NCBI RefSeq assembly: GCF_024298965.1
Contig: NZ_CP085193.1
Span: 2,666,001-2,730,000, forward strand
DNA from: Streptomyces rapamycinicus NRRL 5491
GTDB taxonomy: Bacteria; Actinomycetota; Actinomycetes; Streptomycetales; Streptomycetaceae
DNA length: 64,000 bases
Direction of reading: 5' to 3'
Shown here: positions 41,191 to 62,129 of the stretch, in pieces
How positions within the stretch are numbered: the first letter of the stretch is position 1
Layout: each line of letters begins with the position of its first letter
Made by a program: the position numbers and the translations under genes
The notes under the pieces: model-generated
What the model was told of the DNA's origin: nothing
Databases searched by the model: none
Seen by the model: only the letters and a program-made list of their open reading frames with translations

Positions 41191-41263
41191 GCGGACGTGG
41201 CTCAGTTGGTAGAGCATCACCTTGCCAAGGTGAGGGTCGCGAGTTCGAATCTCGTCGTCCGCT
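41191..41263 (+). tRNA. tRNA-Gly(GCC)
   Basis: 73-nt cloverleaf: acceptor GCGGACG/CGTCCGC, anticodon loop TTGCCAA between TCACC and GGTGA, T-loop TTCGAAT. No encoded CCA. First tRNA of a five-gene array. Confidence 0.96.
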
Positions 41264-41291
41264 CGGTGTGGGGGTTTCGACCCCCACGGCT

Positions 41292-41362
41292 GGTGGAGTG
41301 GCCGAGAGGCGAGGCAACGGCCTGCAAAGCCGTCTACACGGGTTCAAATCCCGTCTCCACCT
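41292..41362 (+). tRNA. tRNA-Cys(GCA)
   Basis: 71-nt cloverleaf: acceptor GGTGGAG/CTCCACC, anticodon loop CTGCAAA, T-loop TTCAAAT. No encoded CCA. It ends one base before the next tRNA. Confidence 0.95.
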
Positions 41363-41363
41363 C

Positions 41364-41435
41364 GGACGATTAGCTCAGCGGGAGAGCGCTTCCCTGACAC
41401 GGAAGAGGTCACTGGTTCAATCCCAGTATCGTCCA
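41364..41435 (+). tRNA. tRNA-Val(GAC), copy 1
   Basis: 72-nt cloverleaf: acceptor GGACGAT/ATCGTCC, anticodon loop CTGACAC between CTTCC and GGAAG, T-loop TTCAATC. Reads GUC/GUU. Confidence 0.95.
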
Positions 41436-41459
41436 CTCGGATCCTCGCGGATCCATCCC

Positions 41460-41531
41460 GCGCGATTAGCTCAGCGGGAGAGCGCTTCCCTGACACGGAA
41501 GAGGTCACTGGTTCAATCCCAGTATCGCGCA
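41460..41531 (+). tRNA. tRNA-Val(GAC), copy 2, altered acceptor stem
   Basis: Same body as copies 1 and 3, but the first acceptor bases are GCGCGAT paired with ATCGCGC instead of GGACGAT/ATCGTCC. Both strands of the stem changed together, so pairing is kept. Confidence 0.95.
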
Positions 41532-41542
41532 CGCAGTCCCGC

Positions 41543-41614
41543 GGACGATTAGCTCAGCGGGAGAGCGCTTCCCTGACACGGAAGAGGTCACTGGTTCAAT
41601 CCCAGTATCGTCCA
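41543..41614 (+). tRNA. tRNA-Val(GAC), copy 3
   Basis: Identical in sequence to copy 1 over the 72-nt body; last tRNA of the array. Confidence 0.95.
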
Positions 41615-58330: not shown

Positions 58331-59155
58331 TCAGAAGGACGGCAGCACGGAGCCCTGGTACTGGTCCTTGATGAACTTCTTCACCTGCGGGGAGGTGAGG
58401 AGCTTGGCCAGCTTCTTCACCCGCGGGTCGTCCTCGTTGCCCTTCTTCACGGCCAGGAAGTTGGCGTAAGGGTTGTTCTTGGGCGACTCGAGGATGATGG
58501 CGTCCTTGGCGGGCTTGAGGTGCGCCTCGATGGCGTAGTTGCCGTTGACGACCGCGGCGTCCACGTCGTCGAGCGACCGCGGCAGCTGGGCGGCCTCCAG
58601 TTCCTTGAACTTCAGGCCCTTGGGGTTGGCGGTGATGTCCTTGGGGGTGGCCTCGTTGCCGACGCCGCTCTTGAGCTTGATGACGCCGCCTGCGTCCAGC
58701 AGCTTCAGCGCGCGGGCCTCGTTGACCGTGTCGCTCGGGACGGCCACGGTGGCGCCCTTCTTGAGCTCGTCGGCCTTCTTCACCTTGTGCGAGTAGAGAC
58801 CGAGCGGTTCGAGGTGCACGGTGACGACGGGCACGATGTCGGTGCCCTTCTTCTTGTTGAAGTCGTCGAGGAACGGCTGGTTCTGGAAGTAGTTGGCACC
58901 GACCGAGCCGTCCTGGGTGGAGAGGTTCGGCGTGTTGTAGTCGGTGAACTCCTTCACCTCGAGCTTGAGGCCCGCCTTGTCGGCCAGGTGGTCCTTGACG
59001 TAGTTGAGGATCTCCGCGTGCGGGACGGGGCTCGCGGCGACGACCAGCGCGCCGTTCTTGTCGTCCGACGAACCCGGGGCGCCGCACGCGGCGGCACCGA
59101 GGGCGAGCGCTCCGGCGGCGAGGACGGTGGTGACGGTCTTTGTGGTGTTACGCAC
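58331..59155 (-). CDS. metQ: Methionine-binding lipoprotein MetQ (NLPA family)
   Basis: About 274 aa from GTG 59153-59155 with GAAAGG upstream. Lipoprotein signal with lipobox-like ALGAAAC, then SSDDKNGALVVAASPVPHAEILNYVKDHLADKAGLKLEV, the NLPA opening. FTDYNTPNLSTQDGSVGANYFQNQPFLDDF and VVTVHLEPLGLYSHKVKKADELKKGATVAVPSD follow with the conserved ligand region, and ending IKDQYQGSVLPSF. Binds methionine (or related sulphur amino acid) outside the membrane for MetNI. Confidence 0.94.
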   Translation of the reverse strand: MRNTTKTVTTVLAAGALALGAAACGAPGSSDDKNGALVVAASPVPHAEILNYVKDHLADKAGLKLEVKEFTDYNTPNLSTQDGSVGANYFQNQPFLDDFNKKKGTDIVPVVTVHLEPLGLYSHKVKKADELKKGATVAVPSDTVNEARALKLLDAGGVIKLKSGVGNEATPKDITANPKGLKFKELEAAQLPRSLDDVDAAVVNGNYAIEAHLKPAKDAIILESPKNNPYANFLAVKKGNEDDPRVKKLAKLLTSPQVKKFIKDQYQGSVLPSF

Positions 59156-59245
59156 GAAAAGTGCCTTTCTTCGGGGGCGCACGAATCCACCGCGGGTGCG
59201 GAAGCGGAATTCGGGCGAGCGGTACGGGGGGGAAGTGGTGGGGGC

Positions 59246-60028
59246 TCAGGGGACCTTGGTGGGCTCCACGGTCTCGATCTCGGCGGGCGCGGTCCGCTGC
59301 TCCGGCACGGGCTTCCCGGCCCGGGACGCGCCGCCGCGCAGCAGCACCAGCCGCGGGGCGGCCGAGGAGCGGCCGCGGTGCGACAGGCCGCGGGCGGCGA
59401 GATCGCCCGCGAACTGGATGATGGCGATGACCACCGCGAGGATGGCGACGGTGATCCACATCAGCTTGGTCTCGAACCGCAGGTAGCCGTAGCGGACGGC
59501 GAGGTCACCGAGGCCTCCGGCGCCGACCGTGCCGGCCATCGCGGAGTAGCCGATGAGCGCGACGATCGTGGTGGTCGCGCTGGAGATCAGCGACGGCAGC
59601 GACTCGGGCAGCAGCACCTTGTGGACGACCGTCCAGGTGGAGCCGCCCATCGACTGGACGGCCTCCACCAGCCCGCCGTCCACCTCGCGCACCGACGTCT
59701 CCACGAGCCGGGCGTAGAAGGGGATGGCGCCGATGGCCAGGGGCACGATGGCGGCCTCGGGGCCGATGGTGGTGCCGACGATCGCCCGGGTGAAGGAGAT
59801 CAGGGCGACCATCAGGATGATGAACGGCATCGAGCGGGCGATGTTGACGACCTGCCCGACGGCCTTGTTCACCACGACGTGTCGGAGCACTCCGCCGCGG
59901 TCGGTGAGGACCAGCAGCACGCCGAGCGGCAGTCCCCCGGCGACGGCGATCAGCGCCGACCAGCCGACCATGTAGAGGGTGTCCCAACACGCCTGCTCCA
60001 GCAGGGGCTCCATCTCGGACCAGGTCAC
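59246..60028 (-). CDS. metI: Methionine ABC transporter permease MetI
   Basis: 260 aa, GTG start overlapping the metN stop as GTGA. Five helices: YMVGWSALIAVAGGLPLGVLLV, NIARSMPFIILMVALISFT, VPLAIGAIPFYARLVE, STWTVVHKVLLPESLPSLISSATTTIVALIGYSAMAG (EAA-like coupling segment), and WITVAILAVVIAIIQFAGDLAAR. The C-terminal ~40 residues are an extra Arg/Pro/Glu-rich tail beyond the normal ~217 aa. Confidence 0.94.
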   Translation of the reverse strand: MTWSEMEPLLEQACWDTLYMVGWSALIAVAGGLPLGVLLVLTDRGGVLRHVVVNKAVGQVVNIARSMPFIILMVALISFTRAIVGTTIGPEAAIVPLAIGAIPFYARLVETSVREVDGGLVEAVQSMGGSTWTVVHKVLLPESLPSLISSATTTIVALIGYSAMAGTVGAGGLGDLAVRYGYLRFETKLMWITVAILAVVIAIIQFAGDLAARGLSHRGRSSAAPRLVLLRGGASRAGKPVPEQRTAPAEIETVEPTKVP

Positions 60029-61080
60029 TTGGCGCCCTCCTTGAGCAGCGGGGTCGGGTTCGCGCGCGGACCGTCGGCGATGGCCGCCACATCGACCTGG
60101 AGGCCCTGCTCCCGCAGGAAGCCGATCGGGACGACGTTCTCCTCGAACCGGCCGGGCAGCTCGATCCGCATCCGGCCGACCTGGTGGCCGCCGACGGTGT
60201 CCATGGCGGCGCCGAGGATCGAGATGTCGATGTTGTACGTACGGGACAGCTGGGAGATGACCGGCTTGGTGGCCGCCTCGCCCTGGAAGGTGACGTCCAC
60301 GACCGTGCGGTCCTCGCCCGAGGGCACCCCGCCGACCGGGAAGAGCTCCTGGGCCAGCTCCGAGCCGGGGGTGGCCAGCAGCTCGCTGACCTTGCCGGAC
60401 TCCACGATCCGCCCGTCGCGCATCAGCGCCGCCGAGTCGCAGATCCTCTTGACGACGTCCATCTCGTGGGTGATGAGCAGCACGGTCAGGCCCAGCTGCT
60501 CATTGAGGTCGCGCAGCAGTTGGAGGATCGAGCGGGTGGTCTCGGGGTCCAGCGCGGAGGTCGCCTCGTCCGAGAGCAGCACCTTTGGGTCGCCGGCGAG
60601 CGCGCGGGCGATGCCGACGCGCTGCTTCTGGCCGCCGGAGAGCTGTGCGGGGTACGCCTTCGCCTTGTCGGCGAGGCCCACCAGCTCCAGCAGCTCCAGG
60701 GCCTTGCGGGTGCGCTCCTTGCCGGAGACGCCGAGGATCTCCAGGGGCAGCTCGACGTTGTCCCGAACGGTGCGCGAGGAGAGCAGGTTGAAGTGCTGGA
60801 ACACCATGCCGACACGGCTGCGGGCCTGGCGCAGCGCGGAGCCCGCACGGTGGCCGCGCCCGGCCAGTGCGGTGAGGTCCTGGCCGGCCACGGTGACCGT
60901 GCCGGAGGTGGGGCGCTCCAGGAGGTTGACACAGCGGATGAGGGTGGACTTCCCGGCGCCGCTCTGGCCGACGACGCCGTACACCTCACCCTCGCGGACA
61001 TGCAGATCGACGCCGTCGAGGGCGGTTACCTCGCGGCCTCGTGAGCGGTAGACCTTGGTCAGGTCCGTGGTGGTGATCAC
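60025..61080 (-). CDS. metN: Methionine ABC transporter ATP-binding protein MetN
   Basis: About 351 aa with GTG start at 61078-61080; the frame is open to 61239 but without support. Walker A GVVGQSGAGKSTL, Q-loop VFQHFN, signature LSGGQKQRVGIARAL, Walker B VLLSDEATSALDP, H-loop LLITHEMDVV. The C-terminal ~100 residues are a NIL (ACT-like) domain (DVTFQGEAATKPVISQLSRTYNIDISILGAAMD region) that binds methionine and inhibits the transporter. A cysteine-rich leader ORF lies upstream. Confidence 0.95.
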   Translation of the reverse strand: MITTTDLTKVYRSRGREVTALDGVDLHVREGEVYGVVGQSGAGKSTLIRCVNLLERPTSGTVTVAGQDLTALAGRGHRAGSALRQARSRVGMVFQHFNLLSSRTVRDNVELPLEILGVSGKERTRKALELLELVGLADKAKAYPAQLSGGQKQRVGIARALAGDPKVLLSDEATSALDPETTRSILQLLRDLNEQLGLTVLLITHEMDVVKRICDSAALMRDGRIVESGKVSELLATPGSELAQELFPVGGVPSGEDRTVVDVTFQGEAATKPVISQLSRTYNIDISILGAAMDTVGGHQVGRMRIELPGRFEENVVPIGFLREQGLQVDVAAIADGPRANPTPLLKEGAK

Positions 61081-61290
61081 AGGGTTTCCGTCACTGTTGA
61101 GTGCGCGGCGGTTGGTTCCGCCGGGCACGGCTCGTTCATTTCGGAACGCGGCAGGGTGGACCCGAGGGCATGCCCGGTGTGTGGGCGCGGTTCGGGTTCC
61201 GGTGACGCGGGGCGGCGCGGTCCGGCGCGATGGACGCACGGATCCGGCTCAGCGGGTCTCGCTTCGGGGCGCGAGGCTCAGCGGGGGCCC

Positions 61291-61377
61291 TCAGCAGTCA
61301 CACATTCGACACCGACAACGAGCACCGGGCGTGGGGATCGCCTCGGTCGCAGGGATGCGGCAGCTCGTCGTGGTCAT
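61291..61377 (-). CDS. Cysteine-rich leader peptide upstream of metNIQ
   Basis: A 28-codon ORF, starting ATG-ACC-ACG-ACG (MTTTSCRIPATEA) and ending RCRCRMCDC then TGA at 61291-61293. Four of the last eight residues are Cys (codons TGT, TGT, TGC plus TGT at position 21 just before). It lies ~210 bp upstream of metN on the same strand. A -10-like TTTACT (61385-61390) sits 7 nt before the ATG and TTGATG (61410-61415) 19 bp further, so the transcript may be leaderless. Cys-rich leaders controlling sulphur genes are known in actinobacteria; I infer cysteine-responsive attenuation. Confidence 0.65.
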   Translation of the reverse strand: MTTTSCRIPATEAIPTPGARCRCRMCDC

Positions 61378-61384
61378 GGCTGCA

Positions 61385-61415
61385 AGTAAAACAGACACCG
61401 GCAGGGACCCATCAA
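61385..61415 (-). promoter_or_regulatory. Promoter candidate for the leader and metNIQ
   Basis: TTGATG (61410-61415, read on the minus strand) and TTTACT (61385-61390) with a 19-bp spacer, placing the expected transcription start at or next to the A of the leader ATG at 61377. Confidence 0.4.
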
Positions 61416-61481
61416 GGGCGTCCGTATAACGGACGGCGTTGCTCGGTCCGTGGACAGTCGGCGGGGTGGCCGGGACCCGGT

Positions 61482-62129
61482 TCAGACCCGGCAGGTGATC
61501 TCCACTCCCCCGTCGGAGACCTGTGCGGACACGGCCGACAGGTCCTCGACCACGACATCGGCGACCAGCTCGGCCCGGTCGGTCGTTGTGGCCAATGCCA
61601 CGGTCCGCATCCCGGCCGCGCGGCCCGCCGCGAGCCCGGCCGGGGCGTCCTCGAAGACCACACAGCGCGCCGGGTCGACTCCGAGCCGCTCGGCGGCCAG
61701 CAGGAACGGCTCGGGGTGGGGCTTGCCGCGGGTGATGTCATCGGCGCTGATCAACGTCCCGGGCCGGATCGCCACCTCCGTCAGACGGGCCTCGGCCAGC
61801 CCGCGGTAGGCGGAGGTGACCACGGCCCAGCGCCCGGCGGGCAGCCCCGCCAGCAGCTCGGCGGCGCCGGGGAGCAGCTTCACCCCGCCCGGTACGTCCG
61901 CCAGCTCCAGCTCGTCGATCCGCGCCCGGGCCCGCGCGGCGCGGTCGGCGGGGAGCAGGTCGGCGATGATGTCGTCGGCCGGGCGACCGTGCAGCTCGAC
62001 CCGGGCGAAGTCCTCCGCCGCGATCCCCTGCTCCTCGGCCCACCGGGTCCAGCAGCGATGCACCGAGTCCAGGGAGGAGACGAGGGTTCCGTCGTTGTCG
62101 AACAACAGCGCGTCAGCGGAGATCTTCAT
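61482..62129 (-). CDS. HAD-IA family phosphatase
   Basis: 215 aa. Motif I DALLFDNDGTLVSS (Asp nucleophile, second Asp acid/base), motif II VVTSAYRG with the Thr/Ser, motif III Lys in ITRGKPHPEPFLLAAERLGV, motif IV CVVFEDAPAGLAAGRAAGM. The helical cap between residues ~20 and 85 is of the type found in phosphoglycolate/sugar phosphatases such as DOG-type enzymes. Substrate unknown. Lies just upstream of the metNIQ leader on the same strand. Confidence 0.92.
   Translation of the reverse strand: MKISADALLFDNDGTLVSSLDSVHRCWTRWAEEQGIAAEDFARVELHGRPADDIIADLLPADRAARARARIDELELADVPGGVKLLPGAAELLAGLPAGRWAVVTSAYRGLAEARLTEVAIRPGTLISADDITRGKPHPEPFLLAAERLGVDPARCVVFEDAPAGLAAGRAAGMRTVALATTTDRAELVADVVVEDLSAVSAQVSDGGVEITCRV

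Follow-up and report, generated by a model that had tools for sequence, protein, structure and literature searches.

A conserved leader peptide gene with overlapping RNA structure probably adjusts the MetNIQ importer to sulfur amino acid supply in Streptomyces

In Streptomyces rapamycinicus NRRL 5491, a tiny gene upstream of metNIQ probably tunes this importer to the availability of sulfur amino acids. It lies in the 64,000 nucleotide stretch of DNA analysed here (which we refer to as the window; NZ_CP085193.1, positions 2,666,001 to 2,730,000), and comparison across genomes indicates that this leader is real and conserved, is not a chance reading frame and looks translated. We favour, on balance, the reading that it is a ribosome-mediated attenuator on the metNIQ mRNA, sensing cysteine and perhaps also methionine.

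The leader is located between a HAD-type hydrolase gene (61482-62129) and the minus-strand genes metN, metI and metQ. It is a minus-strand open-reading frame of 28 codons plus stop (61291-61377, ATG at 61377, TGA stop at 61291-61293). It encodes the peptide MTTTSCRIPATEAIPTPGARCRCRMCDC, ends RCRCRMCDC-stop, is separated from the metN GTG (61080) by 210 nt and is homologous to metL of Streptomyces lividans; the earlier note on this DNA, made from the letters alone, had this frame, its tail and its distance of about 210 bp exactly right. The clustering of cysteines at the leader end, to which the same note drew attention, is unique in the window: among 375 ATG-initiated frames of 12-60 codons (nested starts counted), the leader alone has at least four Cys in its last nine residues. 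Codon tallies point to Cys21, Cys23, Arg24 (CGA), Met25, Cys26 and Cys28 (61294-61317, minus strand) as the presumed sensor codons. Before the ATG, a putative promoter block, GTCTGTTTTACT (61385-61396, minus strand), is kept across 110 loci, and a scan found no sigma-70 consensus there. The leaderless promoter that the earlier note thought probable agrees with the leaderless start reported for the S. lividans homologue, and nothing observed placed the start downstream of 61291, which that note had named as grounds for giving up its proposal.

The three downstream genes are, by family, predicted to form a methionine importer. The ATP-binding protein metN (60025-61080, minus strand) has TIGR02314 as its best NCBIfam match (E 7.5e-114, below the curated cut-off), the permease metI (59246-60028, minus strand) matches NF008049 above its cut-off, and the metQ-type lipoprotein (58331-59182, minus strand) matches PF03180 above cut-off, with the NCBIfam MetQ models below theirs. 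MetQ belongs to the NlpA/MetQ lipoprotein family, and the solved structures matched include methionine-binding proteins; the suggestion that MetNIQ imports cystine as well was not borne out, as nothing points to cystine. Imported methionine could feed cysteine via reverse transsulfuration, so a cysteine signal does not need cystine import. Elsewhere in the window, Rfam models mark five clustered tRNA genes, all on the plus strand (41191-41614).

A DNA search with region 61000-61420 gave matches in 192 of the 199 same-genus genomes, a count that includes the genome of the window, and the leader region was matched in 277 of 293 genomes of the order, the weakest of which may be chance matches. 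We read 147 leaders in the order, 110 of them via the DNA search (the 30 best-ranked loci and 80 picked down the listed ranking of same-genus matches) and 37 reached through MetN, these later loci being weak leader matches or from other genera. All 147 carry at least one Cys and at least one Met from residue 16 on, and in all 147 an in-frame CGA-AUG is followed by UGC, UGU or CGC; 33 of the 37 later loci were found by a script requiring Cys and RM, at no locus was there a candidate that failed this filter, and four leaders (L171, L174, L180 and L181) were located by the string CGAATG. In an unfiltered check set of 60 further loci (L111-L140 and L182-L211; 44 distinct leaders, in genomes partly already counted), tail Cys and Met and the in-frame CGA-AUG were present in all 60. 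The frame and its tail cysteines, on whose retention in relatives the earlier note had staked its proposal, are thus kept in 147/147 leaders and 60/60 further loci. The in-frame CGA-AUG (61303-61308 in the window, minus strand) is invariant although CGA is rare, and no supported helix accounts for it; in 32 long GC3-rich window ORFs CGA accounts for 2.4% of the codons for Arg, and 18 of 118 Cys codons are UGU.

Leader length departs from 28 codons in 12 of the 110 loci, with the tail in frame in all. Among the 98 leaders of equal length Arg24 and Met25 never vary, whilst Cys23 is kept in 93, Cys21 in 91, Met22 in 83 and Cys26 in 67, giving RCMCRMC as the majority tail by position. Taken singly, none of the Cys codons is invariant: Arg stands in place of Cys26 in 31 of the 98 and in place of Cys21 in seven, and Cys23 is replaced in five. 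The window's own tail has four Cys and one Met, Met22 having been replaced by Arg (CGG) in its lineage; the single Met codon remarked on earlier is therefore correct for the window, but is a lineage trait. The conserved peptide stretches are MTTTS, ATEA and TPGARC-C-RM, and codons 6, 8, 9, 14 and 15 vary freely.

The leader element and the metN gene go together. None of nine same-genus genomes with absent or marginal leader DNA has MetN at E ≤ 1e-60 (G022, G044, G110, G232, G270, G272, G312, G324 and G399, of which G232 and G324 had marginal matches; G008, G079, G112 and G145 lay outside the MetN search), and the leader is present in 37 of 37 assessable loci chosen by close MetN, a count that leaves out L166 and L173 at contig edges and the paralogues L150 and L151 of G397. 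The last genome has distant MetN paralogues only, with a different leader peptide before one of them, and G204, from another family of the order, gave no DNA match, yet has both MetN and the leader (L148).

Beyond the order, a Cys leader precedes metN in 24 of 31 loci of another family of the same class (f19), 20 of these leaders having been found with a Cys filter and four by their shared start. Five of the 24 have no Met after the start (L229, L230, L232, L236 and L237), four of which were recognised by the shared start and not by Cys, and Met without Cys occurs in none of the 24, in a search that favoured Cys. A degenerate leader without Cys (L243) is a counter-example, the sole candidate at L227 has a single Cys, and such a leader was not found before metN at L231, L238, L239, L242 and L244. 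In nine loci from other families, L249 has a similar peptide, L246 carries a known leader of a different type (cis_reg_atten), the candidates at L235 and L248 are uncertain (the filter-passing ORF of L235 is left out of the counts), L247 is too short to judge, and no leader was seen at L228, L245, L250 and L251. MetN homologues preceded by a different leader type occur at L150 (G397), L246 (G704) and L249 (G753), e.g. MRIPLMWRRVVDLRRVASSLCR, below the cut-off, or MSRNFGFTRRLAIDLRRHSSALCRWAALTN, above the NCBIfam cis_reg_atten cut-off. A second conserved small ORF lies closer to metN in six f19 loci (L216, L220, L221, L234, L239 and L242), ending LVLRRLSHLPFPPGTR-stop or near variants of it (MICPADTLVLRRLSHLPFPPGTR in L216, MTLSPLPDLILRRITHLPFPPGTR in L239 and L242, MITPGFVLRRLSHLPFHPGTR in L234), which makes it a possible stalling leader with Pro-Pro-Gly.

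Much of the conservation in the leader region is, as far as alignments can tell, that of RNA structure. Covariation points to a hairpin inside the ORF (H1; codons 10-19, 61322-61350, minus strand), with a bulged A that is conserved and a loop, at codons 14-15, that varies. The arms of H1 are the conserved stretches ATEA and TPGA, and the nearly invariant synonymous sites of codons 10-13 and 16-19 fit its pairing. In 79 distinct rows (L142, L143, L146-L149 and duplicates left out), 98.5% of cells are paired and 4 of 10 pairs show compensatory change, on which measure 0 of 500 shuffles was as good. Controls in which the helix was slid pair in 31-45%, one of them (slide -3) having a covariation score of 0.070, above the 0.056 of H1, and 32 of 500 shuffles had at least as many further pair types. 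In the f19 loci L212, L214, L215 and L216, direct reading shows a hairpin of different sequence at a like place.

After the stop, the CTCGC/GCGAG hairpin that the earlier note had picked out is present (hairpin B, CTCGC-GCCCCGAA-GCGAG, 61258-61275, minus strand) and conserved in sequence, its loop being nearly invariant, with 95.4% of cells paired in 74 distinct rows (nine loci and duplicates left out). A U-A to C-G change occurs in 4 of the 74 rows, at one pair only, a value as high in 2 of 500 shuffles; slid versions have as many doubly changed cells, and the number of covarying pairs was reached by 294 of 500 shuffles. Support for hairpin B is accordingly modest, and weaker than that for H1. 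Directly after the leader stop, GGGC (61287-61290, minus strand) could pair with GCCC of the B loop: of the 139 loci with the loop, 135 have GGGC and four have GGGT, and GGGC occurs in none of the eight loci, related genomes among them, that keep the ORF and have no B loop. Since the two occur together and are absent together, a GGGC:GCCC pseudoknot is suggested. Of 101 genomes searched with a strict pattern for the module, 88 have one match, two have two (G002 and G019, with one G019 match looking unrelated) and eleven have none; the reversed pattern gave a single match. In a sample of 394 from the class, the UGA form of the pattern turned up outside the genus in three f19 genomes, in each case directly after the metN leader (L212-L214), and in one chance-like match. 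Rfam covariance models gave no match up to E 10 in 61040-61460, in agreement with the previous remark that no SAM riboswitch is to be seen.

Several further folds were tried. It had been supposed that the hairpin might alternate with others; the competing helix CGAGGC (codons 11-13):GCCUCG (after the stop) is striking in L175 and L176, but as a general switch it was rejected: its covariation is not significant (196 of 2000 permutations do as well), and its core is disrupted in L045, L073 and L110, three loci in which compensatory change preserves hairpin B. RNAalifold gave a mean p of 0.68 to a long-range helix that pairs UGUCGA (codons 23-24) with UCGACA, ahead of the metN start, and also predicted an adjoining hairpin GUGCCCGGCG:CGCCGCGCAC; the helix was discarded too, because the leader variants are not compensated and the window has UCAACA. 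Helix H0 (codons 3-5:19-21) reaches a mean p of 0.95 in RNAalifold and is compensated in L142, but its overall support is weak (95 of 1000 permutations, with six loci shifted by one codon and four left out). The idea that a stalled ribosome releases the metN start found no support, the mean unpaired probability of the start being 0.389 in the free RNA, 0.448 with the ribosome at Cys23 and 0.446 with it at the stop, the last two not separated (Wilcoxon p 0.64). When 113 sequences were aligned jointly, the resulting fold was full of gaps and carries no claim. Repeats of CGCTGAGCC between leader stop and metN, listed in the earlier note as folding partners, do not generalise, as the second copy sits in poorly conserved sequence.

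No intrinsic terminator was found on the minus strand in a simple scan of 61000-61600, and the traits of a classical trp-type attenuator (intrinsic terminator, covarying alternative pairing) were not found at the window's leader. The spacer to metN is C-rich, which makes Rho-dependent attenuation a fitting candidate, with 61081-61257 (minus strand) as the candidate Rho-loading region by base composition. From stop to metN the whole spacer has 44% C and 29% G in the window and on average 45% C and 29% G across 110 loci, with C exceeding G in 110 of 110; its C-G difference in the window is 0.15, against a mean of 0.016 (sd 0.075) over 31 window upstream regions, two of which exceed the spacer. 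A strongly conserved block, CGCGCACTC(G/A)ACAGTGACGGAAA, with a predicted hairpin lies directly before the metN start (about 61085-61140 in the window, minus strand).

In the mechanism that we infer, as regards stalling and its geometry, the charged tRNA that is sensed, the pseudoknot and Rho, transcription would start at or beside the leader AUG and a ribosome would translate the 28 codons, its speed over the tail C-x-C-R-M-C reporting charged tRNA-Cys and, in Streptomyces and relatives, perhaps tRNA-Met too. A ribosome held on the tail would cover the 3' arm of H1, immediately upstream, and leave the post-stop GGGC free, whereas one that runs through would let H1 refold; metNIQ expression would change as a result, the most likely route being Rho-dependent termination within the C-rich spacer.

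Which amino acid is sensed bears directly on the published account of this leader. The earlier proposal of an attenuator responding to charged tRNA-Cys was right in that the element is real and Cys is kept in all 147 leaders, but Cys as the sole signal does not follow, because Met is kept at least as strictly in the order (CGA-AUG in 147 of 147). A sensor of methionine only, as published for metL, would have the AUG codons, above all CGA-AUG, holding the ribosome with the Cys codons as bystanders. It would suit an operon that is by family a methionine importer, it accords with the in-frame CGA-AUG in all 147 leaders and all 60 further loci, and the available text of PMC8079986, which names metL, points to Met and Thr; against this, every one of the 147 tails also has Cys, and the window's lineage has lost Met22 and has four tail Cys. 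The order cannot decide between the two, because both are kept there. The f19 leaders (20 of the 24 Cys-filtered, four found by start) have Cys, five of 24 without Met after the start and none with Met but without Cys, and for this reason we rank Cys as the primary signal and consider Met a likely second one in Streptomyces and its relatives. We regard a methionine-only sensor as unlikely, while still the alternative to be taken most seriously. A fuller version of the attenuator, in which the leader integrates tRNA-Cys and tRNA-Met, the in-ORF hairpin and post-stop pseudoknot gate Rho and the rare CGA sets the timing, is a speculation that we hold to be rather unlikely in all its parts; if true, it would be a new RNA-plus-leader family spanning at least two orders of its class.

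The extent of RNA structure raises the question of whether the peptide matters at all. Were the region mainly an RNA element (H1, B and the possible pseudoknot) binding a ligand, a protein or an RNA, the codons would be kept along with the RNA, and the nearly invariant synonymous sites that fit H1 and the almost invariant loop of hairpin B would be explained; but the frame survives changes in length, both AUG and stop are retained, eight of 147 loci keep the ORF without the B loop, and Rfam has no match up to E 10, so that we consider this improbable. The conserved peptide stretches could instead mark a nascent-chain arrest peptide, a reading to which we give very little credence, as many of the conserved residues coincide with paired positions or invariant synonymous sites and five codons (6, 8, 9, 14 and 15) vary freely. 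The attenuator sensing Cys, and perhaps Met, is thus the reading that we retain.

The leader was earlier taken for the only visible control of metNIQ, which no longer holds. An operator-like palindrome of NdgR-type form, GTCCGTTATACGGAC (61420-61434, minus strand), is conserved and centred about 50 nt before the leader ATG: GTCC-N7-GGAC occurs 40-85 nt upstream in 135 of 147 loci, where 0.3 would be expected by mononucleotide shuffling; in 122 of these loci it begins 56-58 nt before the ATG, and in the other 13 it lies close by. This form agrees with the S. coelicolor NdgR ChIP-seq motif, and NdgR has been linked to cysteine, methionine and leucine genes (PMC4340878); in the available text of that paper SCO1552 and SCO1553 turn up by term search, and SCO1559 does not. 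In the window genome, an IclR-family gene is divergent to leuC with no motif match between the two, and a loose match precedes a leuB-like gene, which scores below its family cut-off. A second, transcription-level input to metNIQ through the NdgR/IclR-type palindrome is likely, judging by the motif. Furthermore, metNIQ of S. coelicolor is reported to be induced by peroxide along with cysteine biosynthesis genes, in dependence on HbpS-SenS-SenR (PMC4991794); a SenR site was predicted before SCO1559, and the gel shifts named in the accessible part of that paper did not include SCO1559. A one-mismatch copy of the predicted SenR site lies between leader and metN in the window (61142-61156, minus strand), where matches with up to two mismatches number five in the whole window against 1.16 expected.

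If the attenuator reading is true, methionine import in Streptomyces would stand under the control of cysteine supply, which is consistent with the peroxide co-induction described for S. coelicolor in the accessible part of PMC4991794. The finding questions the published methionine-only reading of the leader, and offers a compact, testable element which is kept in most sampled genomes of the genus and whose RNA structure has no Rfam match.

The leader is already known, having been listed once, as metL (SLIV_29928) of S. lividans TK24, and is now better delimited. In the available text of PMC8079986 metL, MSTTSDRTPATEATTTPGARCMCRRMCAF, precedes metNIQ, a leaderless start is reported, the leader is read as a methionine attenuator, and several hairpins are described with no typical Rho-independent terminator; the printed peptide is matched letter for letter by the L104 and L105 leaders. 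As far as that account goes, the S. lividans and window leaders are the same element, with the same peptide pattern before metNIQ and no Rho-independent terminator in either, but metL was read as dependent on Met (and Thr), whereas the window tail has four Cys and one Met, and nothing is said there of H1 or hairpin B, of how the element is distributed or of the palindrome upstream of it. Among the papers listed by searches of the open-licence PMC literature, no other description of the leader was seen. Mycobacterial polycysteine leaderless ORFs are said to regulate downstream genes by cysteine availability (Canestrari et al. 2020, as cited in PMC13236596, PMC9094748 and PMC9031893). As these are described there, both they and the window leader are short ORFs with Cys codons, but the Cys codons of the window leader are interspersed with those for Arg and Met and are not contiguous (some relatives, L175 and L149 among them, do have Cys-Cys), and H1 inside the ORF and hairpin B after it set the window leader apart; searched against the NCBIfam leader models (Ms5788A, Ms4527A, cis_reg_atten), it matched no family at E up to 10. 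Leaders of Mycobacterium cys operons and of Bifidobacterium cbs, for which the available text of Seliverstov et al. 2005 (PMC1262725) gives Cys near the stop, no terminator hairpin and a weak suggestion of Rho, resemble the window leader in the position of Cys and in having no terminator, and belong to other genes in other organisms. Set beside these systems, the metNIQ leader is probably a variant of the leaderless Cys-leader attenuators, one in which structured RNA overlaps the ORF.
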